A stretch of DNA of 64,000 nt, taken from the NCBI GenBank assembly GCA_029210325.1, contig JARGPU010000001.1:444126-508125 (forward strand), read 5' to 3'. This document shows, in pieces, positions 15,962 to 25,085 of this stretch. Source of the stretch: Alcanivoracaceae bacterium (GTDB lineage: Bacteria; Pseudomonadota; Gammaproteobacteria; Pseudomonadales; Alcanivoracaceae). Each line of letters begins with the position of its first letter. Position 1 is the first letter of the stretch. A program made the position numbers and the translations under genes. The notes under the pieces were generated by a model, which made no database searches, was not told where the DNA came from, and worked only from the letters and a program-made list of their open reading frames with translations.

Positions 15962-16010
15962 GATTGCCCGGTAAGACTATGTCGGGCGGATACTTTTTAT
16001 ACAGGTGCTA

Positions 16011-16772
16011 ATGAATCTGCAGGGTGGCTTGTTTCTCTGGGCTGATGGCTGGTTGCTAATGGCGGGGCCGATCCATAATCGGCCGCACCGGCATGTGGCG
16101 GCGTCATTGCTGTTTGGCCTGGATCAGACGCTGAGCGCACAAGTGGCTGGTGACAAAGTGGTTGCCCGGGCCCTGCTAGTGGCCCCGGATGTGGAGCAAT
16201 CCCTCGACTCCGCTGGCGCTACCATGGTGGTTCACCTTGATCCGGATAGCCCGCTCTGGTTGCCATTGCGAGGGCTGCTGGTAAACGGCCATGCCCAGCT
16301 TGATTGGGGCGATGAACAGGCAGCCAGATTTCGCCAGCTGGCAGATAGTGTTAGCAGCGAGCCGGCCCATGATCTGCTTGCCAGTCTGTTACCGGTGCCA
16401 GCCGCTGATGCCGGGTCTGAGCGCCCCGTTGATCCCCGCGCTATGACGTTGGCTTACCGGCTGCGCACCGAGCTGCCCGAGCAGCTTAACCTCACCCAGA
16501 TTGCCTCCCAGCTGGGCCTGTCCGCCGCTCGTCTCAGCCGGCTGTTTCGTGAGGCTTTTGGTGTCACGCCAAAGCGCTTTCTGCTGCACCTGAAAATACA
16601 GGGCGCTCTGCATTGCTGGCAGCCGGGAATCAGTGCTGCCGAGCTGGCAATGCGAGCTGGCTTTTACGATCAGCCGCACCTGATCCGCACTGCCCGGGAA
16701 ATGTTTGATACCCTGCCTTCGGCATTAATGGGTAATCCTGCTTTCCGCCTGATTCGCGCCGAGCAGCGGTGA
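16011..16772 (+). CDS. AraC-family transcriptional regulator
   Basis: 253 residues. An N-terminal cupin-like region (about 1-125) precedes a C-terminal double helix-turn-helix: LTQIASQLGLSAARLSRLFR (about 162-181) then F-G-V-T-P-K-R-F-L-L-H-L-K-I-Q-G-A and A-E-L-A-M-R-A-G-F-Y-D-Q-P-H-L-I-R-T. I start at ATG 16011 because AGGTG sits just before it; a GTG lies two codons upstream. It is divergent from ahpC, sharing a roughly 165-base promoter region, but also lies 64 bases before metY. The ligand and the target are unknown. Confidence 0.85.
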   Translation: MNLQGGLFLWADGWLLMAGPIHNRPHRHVAASLLFGLDQTLSAQVAGDKVVARALLVAPDVEQSLDSAGATMVVHLDPDSPLWLPLRGLLVNGHAQLDWGDEQAARFRQLADSVSSEPAHDLLASLLPVPAADAGSERPVDPRAMTLAYRLRTELPEQLNLTQIASQLGLSAARLSRLFREAFGVTPKRFLLHLKIQGALHCWQPGISAAELAMRAGFYDQPHLIRTAREMFDTLPSALMGNPAFRLIRAEQR

Positions 16773-16836
16773 TATAGTCTGCCTCGCAGATCGACCTGAT
16801 TCTAATAACTCGTGTATCTCTAACAGGGAGCTTTTC

Positions 16837-18105
16837 ATGAAACCGGAAACTATTGCCATTCACGGCGGCTTTGCTGGCGACCCCGAAACCCATGCGGTGG
16901 CGGTGCCGGTTTATCAGACCACCAGCTATTACTTTGACAACACCCAGCATGGTGCAGACCTGTTTGACCTGAAAGTGCCGGGCAATATCTATACCCGCAT
17001 TACCAATCCCACCAATGCGGTGCTTGAGCAGCGCGTGGCCGAGCTGGAGGGTGGTATTGGTGCGCTGGCGTTGGCTTCTGGCATGGCGGCGATTACTGCG
17101 GCCATTCAAACCGTTGCCAAGGTGGGGGATAACATCGTTTCTGTTAGTCGGCTGTATGGCGGCACCTATAACTTTTTCGCCCATACCCTGCCGCAGCAAG
17201 GCATTGAAGTGCGCATGGCGTCCGGTGATGATCCGGCCGCGCTGGAAGCATTGATTGATGACAACACCAAGGCTGTGTTTTGCGAGTCCATCGGCAATCC
17301 GGCGGGTAATATTGTTGATCTGCAGGCGTTGGCTGATGTGGCCCACAAGCATGGCATTCCCCTGATGGTCGATAATACTGTGGCGACGCCGGTGCTGTGT
17401 CGGCCGTTCGATTTCGGTGCCGACATTGTTATCCATTCACTGACTAAATACATGGGCGGCCATGGCACCACAGTCGCTGGTGTGATCGTTGATTCCGGCA
17501 AGTTTCCGTGGAAAGACAACCCCCGTTTCCCGCAGTTTAATGAGCCTGATCCGAGCTACCATGGTGTGGTTTACGCAGAAGCTCTGGGGCCAGCCGCCTT
17601 TATTGGCCGCGCCAGAGTGGTGCCGCTTCGCAATATGGGCGCAGCACTAAGCCCATTTAATGCATTTTTGATTCTGCAGGGTATTGAAACCCTGTCATTG
17701 CGTATGGAGCGGCATTGCGAAAATGCCCAGAAGGTGGCGGAGTACCTGAAGGCGCATAAAAAAGTTAAGTGGGTCAACTATGCCGGTCTGACCGATGATC
17801 GCTACCACGATCTTTCCAAGCGCTATATGAAGGGCACGCCCTCAGCCATTCTCAGCTTTGGAATTGACGGTGGGCGTGATGCGGGTGGGCGTTTTATTGA
17901 CGCACTGCAGATGTTCAAGCGTCTGGTGAATATTGGTGATGCCAAGTCACTGGCCTGTCATCCTGCAACCACCACCCACCGGCAGTTGGACGAGCAAGAA
18001 ATGGAGCGTGCTGGCGTGTCGGTAGATATGGTCAGGCTGTCCATTGGTATTGAGCATATCGATGATATTCTCGCCGACATTACCCAGGCGCTGGAAAATG
18101 CCTGA
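16837..18105 (+). CDS. metY: O-acetylhomoserine sulfhydrylase
   Basis: 422 residues, PLP-dependent Cys/Met metabolism family. It makes homocysteine (or methionine from methanethiol) from O-acetyl-homoserine and sulfide. The PLP lysine is Lys204 in HSLTKYMGGHGTT. Other landmarks are TRITNPTN (about 53-60), the cofactor loop S-G-M-A-A-I (81-86), V-D-N-T near 178-181, and CHPATTTHRQ near the C-terminus. The inserted region FPQFNEPDPSYHGVVY and total length near 420 distinguish MetY from shorter MetB/MetZ proteins. A strong terminator follows. No metX gene is in the window. Confidence 0.95.
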   Translation: MKPETIAIHGGFAGDPETHAVAVPVYQTTSYYFDNTQHGADLFDLKVPGNIYTRITNPTNAVLEQRVAELEGGIGALALASGMAAITAAIQTVAKVGDNIVSVSRLYGGTYNFFAHTLPQQGIEVRMASGDDPAALEALIDDNTKAVFCESIGNPAGNIVDLQALADVAHKHGIPLMVDNTVATPVLCRPFDFGADIVIHSLTKYMGGHGTTVAGVIVDSGKFPWKDNPRFPQFNEPDPSYHGVVYAEALGPAAFIGRARVVPLRNMGAALSPFNAFLILQGIETLSLRMERHCENAQKVAEYLKAHKKVKWVNYAGLTDDRYHDLSKRYMKGTPSAILSFGIDGGRDAGGRFIDALQMFKRLVNIGDAKSLACHPATTTHRQLDEQEMERAGVSVDMVRLSIGIEHIDDILADITQALENA

Positions 18106-18135
18106 TAGAAGAATGATGTCCTGATAATAAGCGAT

Positions 18136-18167
18136 AAAAAAGGCCCCGCTATGGCGGGGCCTTTTTT
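18136..18167. terminator. Bidirectional terminator between metY and AraC gene
   Basis: Stem AAAAAAGGCCCCGC / GCGGGGCCTTTTTT (18136-18149 with 18154-18167, loop TATG). T runs exist in both orientations, so it ends both metY and the convergent regulator gene whose stop is at 18168-18166. Confidence 0.9.
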
Positions 18168-19128
18168 ATGCGCACTGATCGCGGTACTGGCCGGGTGACA
18201 TGCCGGTCCAGCGTCGAAATGCTTTGGCGAAAGCGCTCTCGTCAGAAAAGCCAAGTTGTTCAGCGACGTCGCTAATACGGGCTTCTTGCTGCAAGGCTTT
18301 TTGGGCAAGCTGTAGCAGCTCTCTGTCGCGTATCTGTTTGAATGACATGCGCTCATCAGCCAGCAGGCGAATCAAATGTCGGCCGCTCATACCGAGGCTG
18401 TCCGCAACTTTCTCTTTGCCCCAGCGAGGTTGACTGCAGATTAGCGCGGCCACCTGCCGTGACAGGCTGTGATCACCCAGCTGGCTTAGCTGAGTGTCGG
18501 CCAGTTTGAGTAACTGGTCGCGCATTGCCGCGTTTGCTTGAATCAGCGGCAAGGAGAGCATGCTATGGGGGAAGCATATGCTGTTATTGGTGCTGTTAAA
18601 TATCACCGGGCAGCCAAGCATTTCCTGATAGCGGGAAGCGTCATCCAGAGGCCCGTGGCACAGCTCAACGCGGCTGGCCTGAAACCCTCCACCACTATTC
18701 CAGTGGCTCAGGTTAAGCAGCGCGGCGATTACCGTTTCCACCCGCTCCGCCATCCTTACCTGATAATGGGCGTGATAGCTGAGGCAAACTTCATCGACCC
18801 CTGTTTGCAGGGAAAAGTCCCCGCCTTCGCCAACGATTGGATAGTACTCAAGCAGGGCATCAAGGGACTCGCCATAGGTTTCGCAGCTCATCAGTAGCAA
18901 GCCAGCCAGGTCGAGGTGGCCGGCTTGCAGCTCAAGGCCAAGGCATAGGCCAATAAGAGGCTCGTCTGCGGCGCTGCAGAAGGCCTCCCATAAGGCATCC
19001 TGGGACGCCAGCGGAACACGTTCAGTGTCATCTTGCTGGGCCAGCGGCAGATCAATGCCGAGGCGCCCGGCAGCCTGCCGGATGGCCTGAGCAAAACGTA
19101 AGGTAACCGTAGGCTGCCGTTGGCTCAT
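18166..19128 (-). CDS. AraC-family regulator with N-terminal arabinose-binding-like domain
   Basis: 320 residues. Residues about 20-200 form the ligand-binding region seen in ArgR/OruR-type AraC regulators (PF12625-like). The C-terminal part has the two helix-turn-helix motifs: KEKVADSLGMSGRHLIRLL and I-S-D-V-A-E-Q-L-G-F-S-D-E-S-A-F-A-K-A-F-R-R-W-T-G-M-S-P. The last motif is the classic AraC signature. It is transcribed divergently from the monooxygenase operon, 113 bases away, and is the obvious candidate to control it. A self-complementary TTAATATTAA at 19167-19176 lies between the two starts. Confidence 0.9.
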   Translation of the reverse strand: MSQRQPTVTLRFAQAIRQAAGRLGIDLPLAQQDDTERVPLASQDALWEAFCSAADEPLIGLCLGLELQAGHLDLAGLLLMSCETYGESLDALLEYYPIVGEGGDFSLQTGVDEVCLSYHAHYQVRMAERVETVIAALLNLSHWNSGGGFQASRVELCHGPLDDASRYQEMLGCPVIFNSTNNSICFPHSMLSLPLIQANAAMRDQLLKLADTQLSQLGDHSLSRQVAALICSQPRWGKEKVADSLGMSGRHLIRLLADERMSFKQIRDRELLQLAQKALQQEARISDVAEQLGFSDESAFAKAFRRWTGMSPGQYRDQCA

Positions 19129-19241
19129 GTCCTGAATTAACCGAGGTGCGGTCCCGAGGGAGCCGTTTAATATTAAGAATAATTGCGTAGTGTGGGCCCT
19201 GTCTCAGGGTAAATCTATCCCGCTCTTGTTGAGGTTTTGTC

Positions 19242-20567
19242 ATGTATGCAGTGATTGGCGCCGGCCCCATGGGCCTGGCCACGGCCCGTAATCTGAAAAA
19301 ATATAATATCCCGTTTACTGGCTTTGAAATTCACAGTGATGTTGGCGGCCTGTGGGATATCAATAGCCCGACCAGCACCATGTATGAGTCGGCCCATCTG
19401 ATTTCCTCCAAGCGCATGACCGAGTTCAATGAGTTCCCCATGCCAGACGATGTGGCGATCTATCCTCATCATCGGCAGATGGCGAAGTACTTCCGTGACT
19501 ACGCAGAGCATTTTGGCCTGTACCAGCACTATGAGTTTTCCACTGAGGTGCTGTCGGTGCAGCGTAACGGCGATCGCTGGCAGGTGACAACCCGCAAAGA
19601 TGGCAAGGACATGGTGCGTGATTTTGACGGAGTGTTGATCGCTAATGGCACCCTGCATGAACCTAACCTCATCAGTTTGCCCGGCGACTTCTCCGGCGAG
19701 CTGATGCATGCAGCTCAATACAAGAGCGCGGATATTTTCCGTGATAAACGTGTGTTGATCGTAGGCTGCGGGAACTCCGGTGCGGATATTGCAGTGGATG
19801 CCGTACATCAGGCCGCCAGTGTCGATATGTCGGTACGCCGAGGATACTATTTCTTGCCGAAATTTCTGCTTGGAAAGCCAGTCGATACGTTGGGCGGAAA
19901 GTTGAAAATGCCGCGCGCACTGAAGCAACGACTCGATGCTCTTCTGATCCGCACAGTGATGGGCAAGCCGTCCGATTATGGCCTGCCCGATCCCGACTAT
20001 CGTATGTATGAGTCACATCCGGTAATCAACTCTCTGGTGCTGCATCACCTCGGCCATGGCGATATCCGTCCGCGTACGGATATCAGCAAGGTGGAAGGTA
20101 AAACGGTCACCTTTGTCGACGGAAGCCAGGCGGACTATGACTTGATACTGACCGCCACAGGTTACAAGCTACACTATCCGTTTATTGACCATAAGCAACT
20201 TAACTGGAGTGCTGGCGACGCTCCGGCCTTATATCTGAATGCCATGCATCCGGATCTAGACAACCTGTTTGTGATGGGCATGGTGGAGGCTACGGGTCTC
20301 GGTTGGGAAGGGCGTAACGAGCAGGCAGAAATGGTGGCGTTGTACATTCGCCAGCTAAAGGACGGCAAGTCTTCGGCACAGAATTTGCGCCGCATCAAAA
20401 AGCAGAAGGCTGGCAAAAGGCTGGATGGCGGCTATAACTATCTGGCTCTCGAGCGGATGGCCTATTACGTCAGCAAAGACGAATACCGGGCTGCGGTGCT
20501 TGCCAATATTGCAGCGCTGAAATCCGACCTTGATCCCACGCCAGAATCTCGAGCACTAGCATCGTGA
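19242..20567 (+). CDS. Flavin-containing monooxygenase (FMO/BVMO-like)
   Basis: 441 residues. Two Rossmann motifs are present: GAGPMG (6-11) for FAD and GCGNSG (175-180) for NADPH. Between them the FMO fingerprint F-x-G-x-x-x-H-x-x-x-Y is met exactly by FSGELMHAAQY (150-160). The later T-A-T-G-Y (about 304-308) matches the L/F-A-T-G-Y motif. Such enzymes insert one oxygen from O2 into a nucleophilic S or N, or do Baeyer-Villiger oxidation of ketones. It heads a five-gene operon; its stop overlaps the start of the BASS transporter as GTGA. The substrate is unknown. Confidence 0.9.
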   Translation: MYAVIGAGPMGLATARNLKKYNIPFTGFEIHSDVGGLWDINSPTSTMYESAHLISSKRMTEFNEFPMPDDVAIYPHHRQMAKYFRDYAEHFGLYQHYEFSTEVLSVQRNGDRWQVTTRKDGKDMVRDFDGVLIANGTLHEPNLISLPGDFSGELMHAAQYKSADIFRDKRVLIVGCGNSGADIAVDAVHQAASVDMSVRRGYYFLPKFLLGKPVDTLGGKLKMPRALKQRLDALLIRTVMGKPSDYGLPDPDYRMYESHPVINSLVLHHLGHGDIRPRTDISKVEGKTVTFVDGSQADYDLILTATGYKLHYPFIDHKQLNWSAGDAPALYLNAMHPDLDNLFVMGMVEATGLGWEGRNEQAEMVALYIRQLKDGKSSAQNLRRIKKQKAGKRLDGGYNYLALERMAYYVSKDEYRAAVLANIAALKSDLDPTPESRALAS

Positions 20568-21469
20568 CTGATATGGCGCCGATGACTGGTGTGGCGATGA
20601 ACTTCAACAGCGCCGATCTGGTAGTGATGAATGCTGCCATAGCCTTGATGATGTTCGGCGTGTCACTGCAGCTAAAAAAAGAGGATTTCTCACGCCTTCT
20701 GGTTGAGCCAAAGGCACCCATTGCCGGATTGATCGCCCAGTTTCTTTTCTTGCCGCTGGCCACCTGTTTGGCGACCTGGGCGTTGTGGGTGCCGGCAGAG
20801 TTTGCTCTTGGCATGATTCTGGTGGCGTCCTGTCCGGGAGGAACTTTCTCAAACATTATGACCTGGATGGCGAAAGGGAATGTGGCCGTTTCCGTGACCA
20901 TGACGGCAATCTCCAGTTTGGCTGCCGTGGTGATGACACCATTTAACTTTGCTTTCTATGGTTGGCTAAACCCCCATACCAGACCACTGTTGCAGCAGAT
21001 ATCTATTGATCCGGTCAATCTGCTTTTTCTGGTGGCTCTGGTGTTGGCTTTGCCGATTTTTCTTGGCATGGCAGTGGGCAAGCGCTTCCCGTCTCAAGCC
21101 GCCAATGCGGAGCAGCCCATGCGCTGGTTCTCGCTGCTGCTATTTTTTGCCTTCATCGTAATCGCCCTGCAAAAGAACTTTGCTTTGTTTATTAATCATG
21201 TTGGCGCCATATTCCTGTTGGTGATTGCCCACAATGCGGTTGCCCTGCTGGTGGGGCATGGCGCTGGATTGGTCGCTCGCCTGCCGCGGGCCGATCGTCG
21301 TGCGGTAACTATGGAAGTGGGCATCCAGAACTCCGGCTTGGGACTTATGATCCTGTTCACTTTTTTCCCCGAGGCCGGCGGAATGATCCTGATTACCGCC
21401 ATGTGGGGAGTCTGGCATCTGGTTTCCGGTTTGACGCTGGCGCAGATATGGGCAAGGAGGCCGCTATGA
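20564..21469 (+). CDS. Bile acid:sodium symporter (BASS/SBF) family transporter
   Basis: 301 residues with nine to ten hydrophobic helices. Family features are M-M-F-G-V-S-L-Q-L at the N-terminus, A-S-C-P-G-G-T-F-S-N (about 87-96) and E-V-G-I-Q-N-S-G-L-G-L near 247-257, which are the crossover-helix motifs of SBF proteins. Known relatives import organic acids, bile salts, pyruvate or pantoate with sodium. The start is GTG at 20564, overlapping the monooxygenase stop by four bases. The stop overlaps the next gene's ATG. It probably brings in the substrate, or a relative of the substrate, of the operon enzymes. Confidence 0.88.
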   Translation: MTDMAPMTGVAMNFNSADLVVMNAAIALMMFGVSLQLKKEDFSRLLVEPKAPIAGLIAQFLFLPLATCLATWALWVPAEFALGMILVASCPGGTFSNIMTWMAKGNVAVSVTMTAISSLAAVVMTPFNFAFYGWLNPHTRPLLQQISIDPVNLLFLVALVLALPIFLGMAVGKRFPSQAANAEQPMRWFSLLLFFAFIVIALQKNFALFINHVGAIFLLVIAHNAVALLVGHGAGLVARLPRADRRAVTMEVGIQNSGLGLMILFTFFPEAGGMILITAMWGVWHLVSGLTLAQIWARRPL

Positions 21470-22410
21470 GTGATCGCCCCCGGGTATTGATAACTGGCAT
21501 TGGTGGCTACATTGGCAGTCAGCTTGCCCATCAATTGATGCAGCTCTGCTACGTTACCGGCATTGATCTCCGCGAGAACAAGTCATTGCCCTGCGCCCAC
21601 CAGATTATGGATATACGTGATCCCCGGCTGGCGGATTTCCTGCGCAGAGAGGAAATTACCCACGTTATCCATCTTGCTGCGGTGTTGGAGGATAGCGGCG
21701 ACAGACAGAGGGATTTTGATATTGATGTAAATGGCACGCGCAATGTTCTGGATGCCTGTGTCGCCGCCGGTGTAAAGCACCTCACTGTGACCAGTTCTGG
21801 CGCCGCCTATGGCTATCACGCGGACAGCCCGGCCTGGTTGGATGAGCAGGATCTGCTGCGTGGTAATGTTGAGTTTGCCTACTCCGACCACAAGCGTCAG
21901 GTGGAAGAGATGCTGGCCAATTACCGTGACTCCCATGCTGACCTTGAGCAGCTCGTTCTTCGCCCTGGAACCGTGCTGGGAGAAAACACCAGAAACCTGA
22001 TTACCAATCTGTTTGCCCGAAAGCGACTGTTGGCCATCGCCGGTAGCGAGTCCCCCTTTGTCTTTATCTGGGATCAGGATGTGGTCAATATTATTCGTCA
22101 GGGTGTGCTGCAAAATAAAGCCGGGGTATTCAATCTTGCTGGCGATGGCGCGCTGCCGATTCGCCAGATCGCAGCAACTCTTGGCAAGCCGGTGCTGAAC
22201 TTGCCGCCACAACTACTCCGAATTGCGCTTACCGTTGGCAGAAAGCTGGGCATTGGTCGCTATGGCCCTGAGCAGATGGATTTCCTGCGCTATCGGCCGG
22301 TGTTGAGCAACCGGCGCTTGAAGGAGGAGTTTGGCTACACGCCAATGAAAACCTCAGAGCAGGTTTTTCAGTTCTATGTTCTCCATGCGCGTGCTCGAGG
22401 TGATCTATGA
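21466..22410 (+). CDS. NAD-dependent epimerase/dehydratase family protein (extended SDR)
   Basis: 314 residues. The N-terminal GIGGYIGSQLAHQL (about 11-24) is the extended-SDR G-x-x-G-x-x-G NAD site, with D-I-R-D-P-R near 49-54. The catalytic set appears as Ser in VTSSGAAYGYH (about 112-122) and the Y-S-D-H-K block (Tyr-x-x-x-Lys, with His in third place). It overlaps both neighbours by four bases (ATGA at each end). SDRs of this type act on nucleotide sugars, hydroxysteroids or similar alcohol groups; the neighbourhood does not contain sugar-nucleotide genes, so a 3-beta-hydroxysteroid-like substrate is as likely as a sugar. Confidence 0.87.
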   Translation: MSDRPRVLITGIGGYIGSQLAHQLMQLCYVTGIDLRENKSLPCAHQIMDIRDPRLADFLRREEITHVIHLAAVLEDSGDRQRDFDIDVNGTRNVLDACVAAGVKHLTVTSSGAAYGYHADSPAWLDEQDLLRGNVEFAYSDHKRQVEEMLANYRDSHADLEQLVLRPGTVLGENTRNLITNLFARKRLLAIAGSESPFVFIWDQDVVNIIRQGVLQNKAGVFNLAGDGALPIRQIAATLGKPVLNLPPQLLRIALTVGRKLGIGRYGPEQMDFLRYRPVLSNRRLKEEFGYTPMKTSEQVFQFYVLHARARGDL

Positions 22411-23198
22411 ATCGGGTGGTGTTGGTTACCGGTGCCGCCAGTGGTTTAGGTTGGGCGTTGAGTCGCGCCTTCCTCGCCGTAGGGGACAAGGTGGTGCTGG
22501 TGGACCGGGATGAACAGCTATTGCAGCAGCGCCAGCAAGAGTGCGGCGAGCCGGGCCGAATACGCACCTGTGTTTGTGACGTCACCGAACAGCAGCAGCT
22601 TGCCAGTCTTATTGCCGAAGTAGATAGTCACTTCGGCCGTCTTGATGTGTTGGTTAATAATGCCGGCATTACTCACCGCTCTCCCGCGGCTGACACCAAT
22701 GCAGCAGTGTTAAAGAAAGTCATGGCGGTGGACTGGCAGGGGCCGGTCGAACTCACCTTGTTGGCATTGCCAATGCTCAAACGTAGTGGCGGCCAGATTA
22801 TTTGCATAGGCTCCATGGCCGGTTGGATGCCGGTGCCGGGCAGGGCAGCCTATTGTGCGGCCAAGTCCGCGCTGGCCCAGTTCTTTGAAGTGCTGCGCCT
22901 GGAAGTTGCTGCCGATGGGGTGGCTGTATTGATGGTGTATCCGAGCTTCCTGGATACTCCGATTGAAAAAAATGCTCTGGGTCATGATGGTGGGCGGGCA
23001 AAGCACTCACGTTCCACCGTCGGCAATATTCGTAGTGCCGAGTGGATGGCCGAGAAAATTATTGGCGCCATGAACCAGCGTCGCCCATGGCTATTTCCTG
23101 ATGGTTTGTCTGCATTTGCCAGTATTCTGTGGCGAGTCTGGCCATCGCTGTATATGCGGCTAATTCGCCGTCGCTTTGCCAGCGAGCTCCAGCGCTGA
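22407..23198 (+). CDS. Short-chain dehydrogenase/reductase (classical SDR)
   Basis: 263 residues. It has the T-G-x-x-x-G-x-G NAD(P) motif (TGAASGLG, 8-15), D-V-T near 58-60, V-N-N-A-G-I (86-91), the catalytic Ser in C-I-G-S-M-A-G and the Tyr-x-x-x-Lys pair in AYCAAKSAL (about 150-158). The basic C-terminal tail with two aromatic-rich hydrophobic stretches suggests membrane association. It starts with ATGA overlap and its stop shares one base with the start of the TSUP gene (TGATG). It likely interconverts an alcohol and ketone in the pathway begun by the monooxygenase. Confidence 0.9.
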   Translation: MNRVVLVTGAASGLGWALSRAFLAVGDKVVLVDRDEQLLQQRQQECGEPGRIRTCVCDVTEQQQLASLIAEVDSHFGRLDVLVNNAGITHRSPAADTNAAVLKKVMAVDWQGPVELTLLALPMLKRSGGQIICIGSMAGWMPVPGRAAYCAAKSALAQFFEVLRLEVAADGVAVLMVYPSFLDTPIEKNALGHDGGRAKHSRSTVGNIRSAEWMAEKIIGAMNQRRPWLFPDGLSAFASILWRVWPSLYMRLIRRRFASELQR

Positions 23199-23932
23199 TG
23201 GAGCATCTCTGGCTATTGGCCATCTTTATTCTGTTCGCCTACACGGTGGAAGCGGTTACCGGCTTTGGCAGCATTGTTATTGCGCTGTCACTTGGTGCCT
23301 TGCTGATGCCGGTGCCGGAACTGCTGCCGATCCTCGTGCCGCTGAATATTTTGATGACTGGCTGGTTGACCTCGCGGTTCTATCGGAATATCGATGTCCA
23401 GCTTCTACTCAAGCGTATTGTGCCGCTCATGTTGGCCGGAACACTTCTAGGCTATCTATTGCTCCCATGGCTCAGTGAGCGTTGGCTAAAGCCGTTGTTC
23501 GGTGTTCTTATCCTGTGGTTCTCTGCCCGGGAGTTATGGCGTCTTCATCATGGAGGGGCGGTACATCATCCAAAATGGCTAACCCCACCGCTTATGTTTT
23601 CGGCGGGCATTACCCATGGACTATTTGCTTCCGGTGGTCCGCTGCTGGTTTATGCCTTGGTCGGCACATCGTTAGACAAGGCCCGCTTTCGGGCGACCTT
23701 GATTGCAGTGTGGTTTCTCCTTAACAGCAGTCTCACTATTGCCTTTTTGCTTGATGGGCGGCTGCAGCCCGCACTGCCTGCGGTATTAATGTTGGCGCCG
23801 CTATTGCCTGTCGGCGTCTGGCTTGGTGAAGAGCTGCATCATCGGGTTGACGAGGGCTTGTTTCGCAAGCTGGTCTACGGGCTGCTGATGGCGACTGGCT
23901 CAATACTGCTAAGCGCACCATTGCTAAATTGA
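23198..23932 (+). CDS. TauE/SafE (TSUP) family sulfite/organosulfur exporter
   Basis: 244 residues, eight hydrophobic helices. Two repeats of the TSUP fold are visible, with V-T-G-F-G-S-I-V-I near residue 18-26 and G-I-T-H-G-L-F-A-S-G-G-P-L-L-V-Y (about 132-147), the conserved second-half motif. Characterised members export sulfite, sulfoacetate or related anions. ATG 23198 shares one base with the previous stop; a longer frame from 23129 lies within the dehydrogenase gene. It is the last gene of the five-gene operon and probably exports a product or a toxic by-product. Confidence 0.87.
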   Translation: MEHLWLLAIFILFAYTVEAVTGFGSIVIALSLGALLMPVPELLPILVPLNILMTGWLTSRFYRNIDVQLLLKRIVPLMLAGTLLGYLLLPWLSERWLKPLFGVLILWFSARELWRLHHGGAVHHPKWLTPPLMFSAGITHGLFASGGPLLVYALVGTSLDKARFRATLIAVWFLLNSSLTIAFLLDGRLQPALPAVLMLAPLLPVGVWLGEELHHRVDEGLFRKLVYGLLMATGSILLSAPLLN

Positions 23933-23948: not shown

Positions 23949-25085
23949 TCACGCTGGGTTGGCATACAGGAGCTGTCTGAAAAGGGTAAGCGCGCGGCTT
24001 TGCGGCAGAGATATCTGCTCCCAGCGGATTGGGCTGCCGGCCTTAATATGCTTCTCTACCGTAGCCTGCTGAAGCAGTCCGATTGGCGGGTATTGGTGGT
24101 GTGATGAGAATGGCACCGCTTCACCTCGACACTGGAATCCACCCAGAGCCCGATCAATTTTTTCGCCGGGCTGCATGTCTTTCTTGGCCAGAGCGATCAC
24201 TCCGGTGTTGGGCTGTTTGCTATTGTTTAGCAGAACCTCGCCCCGTAATGCCATGGCGATAGTGGCCGGGATCTCCAGGTGGCAAAGGTGAAATGGCTGG
24301 AGCAAAAAATAATAAGGCCCGTCACCCAGTTTCAGATAGCGGAGCGCGTCTGCATCCGGGTGTTTGCCAACAATAAAGATGCCAGCGGGGCCGCCCGCGT
24401 TTAGCACATAATCACTGATGGGCTGGCCCAGGTTTTCTGCCTCAGCAGCTAGCGCTAGCGCTGCCTCCGGCAGATTGGCTGATACCGGACCAAGCATGCC
24501 GGGTCTGGCGATGCGCGCATCGCAGCCATTGGCAACCAGTGCCTGCTCGCACTGAATCTTACTGCCATCGGTAAATGCGGTGACCTGCGCCAGGCTGATG
24601 CCCTGGCGTTCCGCCCAGTACTGCATGTCCTTCGCGGTCGGGTGGTGATTGAGAAAGCCTTTGATATTGCCGAGCACCAGCGGCTCAAAGCCCATGCTCA
24701 ATGCCCGGCCATATAATGCCGCCAGACTGCCGGGCTGATCGCCCTCGGCCTCGCTGAGTATTCCCTGGCCAACAAAGGCGGTGCCTACGGTGATATGAAA
24801 TTCCGTGTTCATGGTGACTACCGGCTTGTCGGCAGCCAGTGCTTGCTCGACCACCTCGGTGGCATGCAACACATCGCCGCTGCATTCAACAATCAGGTCG
24901 GAGTGGCGTAGCAGGGTGTCCATATCGCCGCAGAGCTTTTCCGCATAGGGGTGACGGACGTCTGCAGCGGGGCGTCGTGATAGCACTGGTCCCAACTGAT
25001 ATTGACTGCCGCGGGCCAGATGATCGGCAAGGCCGCGGCCGATAAAGCCGCTTCCGCTGATACCGATAACCGGTTTGGCTGGCAT
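23949..25085 (-). CDS. Homoserine-dehydrogenase-like oxidoreductase with SAF domain
   Basis: 378 residues. The N-terminal Rossmann motif G-I-S-G-S-G-F-I-G-R-G-L (7-18) is followed by V-E-C-S-G-D (about 66-71) and V-T-M-N-T-E-F-H, typical of the homoserine/aspartate-dehydrogenase-like fold. The last third (about 280-360: E-V-L-L-N-N-S-K, V-I-A-L-A-K-K-D-M-Q-P-G-E-K-I-D) is a SAF-type domain. Such SAF-dehydrogenase fusions are known but their substrates are mostly unassigned. ATG 25085 follows AAGGGGGCGG; the frame runs on to 25196 without a better site. It is convergent with the TSUP gene and divergent from a sulfotransferase. Confidence 0.8.
   Translation of the reverse strand: MPAKPVIGISGSGFIGRGLADHLARGSQYQLGPVLSRRPAADVRHPYAEKLCGDMDTLLRHSDLIVECSGDVLHATEVVEQALAADKPVVTMNTEFHITVGTAFVGQGILSEAEGDQPGSLAALYGRALSMGFEPLVLGNIKGFLNHHPTAKDMQYWAERQGISLAQVTAFTDGSKIQCEQALVANGCDARIARPGMLGPVSANLPEAALALAAEAENLGQPISDYVLNAGGPAGIFIVGKHPDADALRYLKLGDGPYYFLLQPFHLCHLEIPATIAMALRGEVLLNNSKQPNTGVIALAKKDMQPGEKIDRALGGFQCRGEAVPFSSHHQYPPIGLLQQATVEKHIKAGSPIRWEQISLPQSRALTLFRQLLYANPA

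Follow-up and report, generated by a model that had tools for sequence, protein, structure and literature searches.

A divergently transcribed AraC-type regulator and a five-gene operon headed by a flavin monooxygenase form a conserved cassette in the Alcanivoracaceae and in other bacteria. We describe it from a 64,000-nt stretch (hereafter the window) of the 3.03 Mb genome of an Alcanivoracaceae bacterium, in which it occupies positions 18166-23932. The operon encodes an FMO-like enzyme, a BASS symporter, an extended short-chain dehydrogenase/reductase (SDR) of epimerase type (EPI), a classical SDR and a TSUP exporter. The parts belong to known families; their combination and the active site of the FMO are unusual. 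Our reading, held at somewhat less than even confidence, is that of a self-regulated inducible catabolic (or detoxifying) cassette that would import an organic anion, interconvert alcohols and ketones, oxygenate the substrate and, where TSUP is present, export a product. It builds on the computed gene set and its conservation, a link between operator and regulator, intact catalytic and Na+-site residues, and an Asn-to-Ile change in the FMO.

Gene organisation of the cassette

The gene order was established from the open reading frame (ORF) listing and Pfam matches, with the following features in and around the cassette:

18166..19128, minus strand: divergent AraC-type regulator (Arabinose_bd PF12625, 3e-33; HTH_18, 1.3e-19)
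19129..19165, plus strand: tandem operator (GTCCTGAATTAACCG at 19129-19143 and GTCCCGAGGGAGCCG at 19151-19165; 22 bp apart, same direction)
19242..20567, plus strand: FMO-like flavin monooxygenase, HLISSK subfamily (PF00743, 1.6e-57)
20564..21469, plus strand: BASS (SBF) symporter family, Na+-coupled organic-anion type (PF01758, 7.6e-31)
21466..22410, plus strand: EPI, extended SDR of epimerase type (PF01370, 9.8e-26)
22407..23198, plus strand: classical SDR oxidoreductase (PF00106, 2.5e-51; NCBIfam PRK06181 above cut-off)
23198..23932, plus strand: TSUP/TauE-SafE family membrane exporter (PF01925, 1.9e-31; 110 bits against a gathering score of 32.6)
18134..18169, minus strand: terminator-like hairpin between MetY and AraC (16-pair stem, A/T tracts on both sides)

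These coordinates agree with the original prediction, which had been made from the letters of the window. Its proposal that the five genes overlap by one or four bases is confirmed by the sequence itself. The FMO stop codon and the GTG start of BASS share four bases (GTGA, 20564-20567), the BASS/EPI and EPI/SDR junctions likewise share four (ATGA, 21466-21469 and 22407-22410), and the SDR and TSUP genes share one (TGATG, 23198). The divergent AraC gene is also present upstream as predicted, set off from MetY by the strong terminator-like hairpin.

Conservation and distribution

The nearest named relative is Alcanivorax sp. 1008, whose FMO is 95% identical to that of the window. Between the two, dN/dS is 0.02-0.11 in all six genes; all six are under purifying selection. 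Of the 35 other family genomes searched, 32 carry the FMO, at 65-95% identity; of the three that lack it, two are 86-89% complete and one is complete. With wider flanks the block, from the divergent AraC gene through FMO, BASS, EPI and SDR to TSUP, is kept nearly throughout the family. Named genomes that were scanned extend the range to Marinobacter, Halopseudomonas, Pseudomonas, Psychrobacter, Microbulbifer, Spongiibacter, Zhongshania and Parendozoicomonas.

In the 87 FMO loci whose flanks are complete, the FMO is adjoined by BASS in 81, by SDR in 76, by EPI in 71, by an upstream AraC gene in 59 and by TSUP in 53, and all six genes occur together in 35; as the scan was seeded by the FMO, these counts are conditional frequencies. 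The gene set is far more than a chance adjacency, and the original prediction, which had staked itself on the genes being conserved together in relatives, stands on this point within the family and beyond. A close FMO was found in 37 of 293 genomes sampled across the order, and EPI at a strict threshold in 3 of 369 sampled across the class; beyond its home families, therefore, the cassette has a patchy distribution. No EPI was found on plasmids in a plasmid search.

Other gammaproteobacteria, and genomes from another class of the phylum, also have the core of FMO, BASS and EPI. Two loci (L222 and L224) have a divergent TetR regulator instead of AraC. A third (L233, 5220-9109; FMO identity only 44%) has the genes as BASS-EPI-FMO, with a dienelactone hydrolase after them. 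As the three genes are kept in distant taxa and reordered in one genome, their link looks functional rather than that of a frozen neighbourhood. An alpha/beta hydrolase comes after the 37% homologue in L055; this enzyme and the dienelactone hydrolase could open an ester or lactone.

Individual parts are missing in several lineages. Several Pseudomonas are without EPI and have a metal-dependent amidohydrolase directly 3' of TSUP (PF07969; L105, 11783-13576, together with L111, L112, L126 and similar loci); in L105 the amidohydrolase ORF and TSUP share 4 bases. Psychrobacter and Microbulbifer have no TSUP at the locus, BASS is missing in a few loci, and one Pseudomonas has FMO and TSUP alone. 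From this pattern FMO, BASS and the dehydrogenases form the heart of the cassette, and the exporter is optional. In two Pseudomonas loci (L113, 7058-11608; L128, 7041-12333) the FMO, alone or with TSUP and without BASS or SDRs, adjoins a class II DAHP synthase and a spermine-synthase-like gene.

Neighbouring genes were compared in the same way. In most Alcanivoracaceae the cassette has as neighbours MetY, a sulfhydrylase, and a second AraC-type gene (window 16005-18105). Outside the family MetY is only weakly linked to it: MetY is present in 14 of the 87 loci, and the exception to the family pattern is one distant copy in L222, in opposite orientation. The AhpC/AhpF genes lie close by in the window, outside the conserved block. 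MetY and AhpCF were rejected as operon members because neither is conserved beside the cassette outside Alcanivoracaceae. The gene directly 3' of TSUP is convergent and encodes a DRL-type oxidoreductase domain (PF21135, window 23949-25085). The 95% relative keeps it; in the next relative (G002), TSUP is followed by pirin and the gene was not found.

The FMO lacks the catalytic asparagine

The window FMO carries an exact F-x-G-x-x-x-H-x-x-x-Y fingerprint (FSGELMHAAQY). In the alignment its columns 150, 152, 156 and 160 hold F in 45 of 46 sequences and G, H and Y in all 46, and the GxGxxG motifs for FAD and NADPH and the FxGxxxHxxx[YF] fingerprint are strictly conserved. The original prediction had called the fingerprint exact, and so it is, but that wording overstates how ordinary the enzyme is. 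At the catalytic Asn of class B FMOs (N61 in human FMO3), the residue by which the C4a-hydroperoxyflavin is stabilised, it has Ile54, which a profile alignment places opposite the Asn of AncFMO2 and N57 of the flavin-dependent monooxygenase DiatB. The Ile is invariant in 168 of 168 orthologous matches at an identity of at least 54%, a count in which some genes stand under more than one locus number. It also occurs in a wider HxISS[KR] group at 36-44% identity; other relatives have Asp or Asn. In an unrooted comparison the Asp and Asn forms group with one another and the Ile forms stand apart, with the placement of the L055 Ile sequence relative to the root uncertain. Two Ile-type FMOs of the same subfamily (L148:5947-7236 and L150:5932-7302) lie inside modular polyketide-synthase-like clusters on Azospirillum and Paraburkholderia plasmids.

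The AF2 model of the FMO (pLDDT 90) is closest to the solved structure of DiatB (8z12; TM 0.85, 31% identity), followed by ancestral mammalian FMOs. One deposited DiatB structure (8z16) is an N57A mutant of the aligned Asn; a search for literature on the DiatB entries found none. The marks of type I Baeyer–Villiger monooxygenases (BVMOs) are absent: in place of FxGxxxHxxxW[PD], Tyr replaces Trp in 46 of 46 sequences, and the active-site Asp is again Ile.

According to a published survey, FMO clades I-III have Asn at the corresponding site (in rare cases Thr, His or Val), clade IV and the NMOs have Gln, and BVMOs have Asp; in Baeyer–Villiger-active enzymes the residue one position earlier is Leu or Ile (PMC10682829). 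The residue before Ile54 is Leu. In human FMO3, N61S abolishes trimethylamine N-oxygenation and destabilises the intermediate, while some activity remains on other substrates (PMC5676948). Given the Ile, the preceding Leu and the effect of N61S, a Baeyer–Villiger-type step seems more likely for this FMO than classical N- or S-oxygenation. A bolder proposal, rather doubtful in our estimate, is that the cassette encodes a catabolic route not yet described and that a new type of flavin oxygenation is its key step. The HxISS[KR] subfamily would then handle its peroxyflavin with none of the residues (Asn, Gln, His or Asp) that characterised class B monooxygenases are reported to have at this site.

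An arsenic operon was also considered, as the SBF family includes Acr3 and the best NCBIfam model for the FMO is ArsO. It was rejected because the ArsO score is far below the cut-off (NF040505, 103 of 425 bits) and BASS models fit the transporter better.

Transporters and dehydrogenases

The closest solved chains to the BASS protein are those of ASBT_NM (3zux/3zuy). Together with the PF01758 match, the protein has the residues of a Na+ symporter: Q59, S96, N97, T114, E251 and N256 are conserved across 37 homologues and align with the sodium sites of ASBT_NM, through whose structure we take them to be Na+ ligands. The nearest specific NCBIfam model is PanS (ketopantoate/pantoate), at 138 of 400 bits and below cut-off. 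TSUP/TauE membership of the exporter follows from its PF01925 score; the gene had no match among NCBIfam models.

EPI has the TGxxGxxG motif, S109/S110 and Y138xxxK142 of an extended SDR, with catalytic residues invariant or nearly so in 45 sequences. Its AF2 model (pLDDT 93) has a UDP-sugar-epimerase fold at ~20% identity, and there is a 3Beta_HSD Pfam match; the Epimerase model and sugar-epimerase folds fit better. In SDRs, an Asp after the second strand points to NAD. EPI has such an Asp, which suggests NAD as its probable cofactor. Among the closest solved structures to the classical SDR is 17beta-HSD14.

A tandem operator tracks the AraC regulator

Comparison of upstream regions revealed a direct repeat, GTCCYGAATTAACCG followed ~22 bp on by GTCCYGAATNRGCC, just upstream of the FMO; in the window it stands directly beside the araC start codon. 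Of 46 family genomes, 28 have the gapped tandem pattern exactly once and none has its reversed control; the pattern lies just upstream of the FMO wherever FMO coordinates are known. This uniqueness is partly by construction, because the pattern was derived from such loci. We therefore applied a weight matrix built from the family sites to other taxa (p <= 0.02 against shuffles). This out-of-sample matrix detected the operator in 33 of 41 AraC-bearing loci and in 0 of 17 AraC-less loci (Mann–Whitney p 5e-8, from loci that are not phylogenetically independent). As the operator tracks the presence of AraC, the AraC protein is likely a direct and local regulator of the cassette.

A wider AraC regulon was rejected: single sites gave 214 matches in the genome itself against 347 for the reversed control, so that only the tandem is informative. 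A consensus scan found no sigma-70-like promoter ahead of the FMO, with a total not above that of shuffles. A QhpR/amine route was also set aside (NCBIfam NF049968, 204 of 250 bits, below cut-off). Six AraC-less Pseudomonas loci (L112, L126, L135, L139, L141 and L144) share a different motif, approximately GGCGCCRATTGTCATTGA and then GGTCACGCRATAATT, where the AraC operator would otherwise stand upstream of the FMO.

Possible functions of the cassette

In the catabolic or detoxifying reading, the AraC protein with its ligand would act on the tandem repeat upstream of the FMO and activate the five-gene operon. BASS would then import a small organic anion with Na+, and the two SDRs would convert hydroxyl groups to ketones or the reverse. 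With NADPH and O2, the FMO-like enzyme would insert oxygen at a ketone, in a Baeyer–Villiger-type or related oxidative cleavage, and TSUP, where present, would export the anionic product. The direction of transport, the order of steps and the Baeyer–Villiger chemistry are what we infer from these parts. An import, oxidation and export cassette was also the core of the original prediction and is still the best reading. Its impression that no characterised pathway has this gene set agrees with full-text literature searches, covering few subscription journals, which found no description of one.

Several observations weigh against this reading. Baeyer–Villiger activity does not follow from family membership, as the FMO has neither the BVMO Trp fingerprint nor the Asp, and the cassette of the window has no esterase. 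Several Pseudomonas have no EPI, Psychrobacter and Microbulbifer have no TSUP, and a few loci have no BASS, so a single linear pathway that needs every part is not universal. The correlation among the distance matrices of the six proteins (r 0.75-0.89 across 38 loci) speaks for the reading but also reflects common species history.

Other functions were weighed against the same evidence. The original prediction had named sulfite as a possible exported product, and in a sulfonate or organosulfur cassette BASS would import a sulfonate or thioether acid, the FMO would S-oxygenate or desulfonate it, the SDRs would process the backbone and TSUP would export sulfite. The TSUP family includes sulfite and sulfonate exporters, and MetY adjoins the cassette in most Alcanivoracaceae; however, MetY is rare among the 87 loci and separated by the hairpin, and the FMO is without the Asn used by S/N-oxygenating FMOs. 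With TSUP missing in 34 of 87 loci, no Xsc above the curated cut-off in the genome (best 313.5 of 676.4 bits) and no other pointer to sulfonates, sulfite export is not central to the cassette, and we consider this function improbable. We give similarly little credence to a YUCCA-like oxidative decarboxylation, by which BASS would import a 2-oxo or 2-hydroxy acid, an SDR would make the keto acid and the FMO would remove CO2. PanS is the nearest specific model of the transporter, but its cut-off was missed, and a rice YUCCA is also without the Asn (PMC10682829), but has His there and not Ile.

The Ile in every member would also suit an FMO-like protein that does not oxygenate and acts as an NADPH oxidase or reductase in a redox-stress or detoxification module. 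Loss of the Asn destabilises hydroperoxyflavin in human FMO3 (PMC5676948), and AhpC/AhpF are close by. However, AhpC/F are outside the conserved block, both nucleotide motifs are strictly conserved, as is the FMO fingerprint, and related Ile-type FMOs occur in polyketide synthase clusters, where oxygenation is expected; we regard such a module as quite unlikely. Very unlikely, in our assessment, is a steroid or bile-acid transformation, with bile acid import by BASS, the SDRs as hydroxysteroid dehydrogenases and the FMO acting on a ring or side-chain ketone. The name of the BASS family, the 3Beta_HSD match of EPI, the likeness of the classical SDR to 17beta-HSD14 and the amidohydrolase added in Pseudomonas, which could deconjugate, are in keeping with it. 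Such family names are broad, however, and do not fix the substrate, and EPI is closer to the Epimerase model and sugar-epimerase folds than to 3beta-HSD. KshA, by which alone the 9,10-seco route was checked, is absent from the genome (no PF19298 match). A known steroid route, which the original prediction had allowed might explain the set, is thus not indicated.

Nearly every Alcanivoracaceae genome searched has the cassette, as do many other Pseudomonadales from marine and soil habitats; being that widespread, it presumably handles a compound that these bacteria meet often. Its sharply defined operator means that inducers could be screened by a simple reporter, and the FMO subfamily offers a test of the extent to which oxygenation by class B enzymes needs the conserved Asn.

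Comparison with known systems

Class B FMOs, including mammalian FMO5, share with the cassette FMO the fold, the FAD and NADPH motifs, FxGxxxHxxx[YF] and the Leu/Ile at position 61 of Baeyer–Villiger-active FMOs; the cassette FMO differs by Ile for Asn at position 62. It is ~26-29% identical to the ancestral mammalian FMOs and ~90 residues shorter. DiatB (8z12), its closest solved structure, keeps Asn N57, in contrast to the Ile of the cassette family. The bacterial bile-acid sodium symporter ASBT_NM belongs to the BASS family like the cassette transporter, which keeps its Na+-site residues; the two are distant in sequence, and the cassette BASS sits in an oxidation operon.

A block on a Burkholderia ambifaria conjugative plasmid (L149, 4681-8631) also has a divergent AraC gene and an Ile-type FMO with an SDR directly behind it. 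Its order is AraC-FMO-SDR-DUF962, without BASS, EPI or TSUP, and its FMO is only 40% identical, making it a simpler sister of the cassette.

The virS-mymA operon of Mycobacterium tuberculosis has an AraC/XylS-type regulator and includes SDR genes; to our knowledge, it has no BASS, extended SDR or TSUP. By its organisation, the cassette appears akin to such operons of regulator, flavin monooxygenase and dehydrogenase. In virS-mymA, too, the flavin monooxygenase heads the operon and one promoter/operator ahead of the oxygenase drives all genes; it differs in its seven genes, among them adhD, and in that MymA is called a Baeyer–Villiger monooxygenase, the comparison being one of organisation only (PMC13234193).

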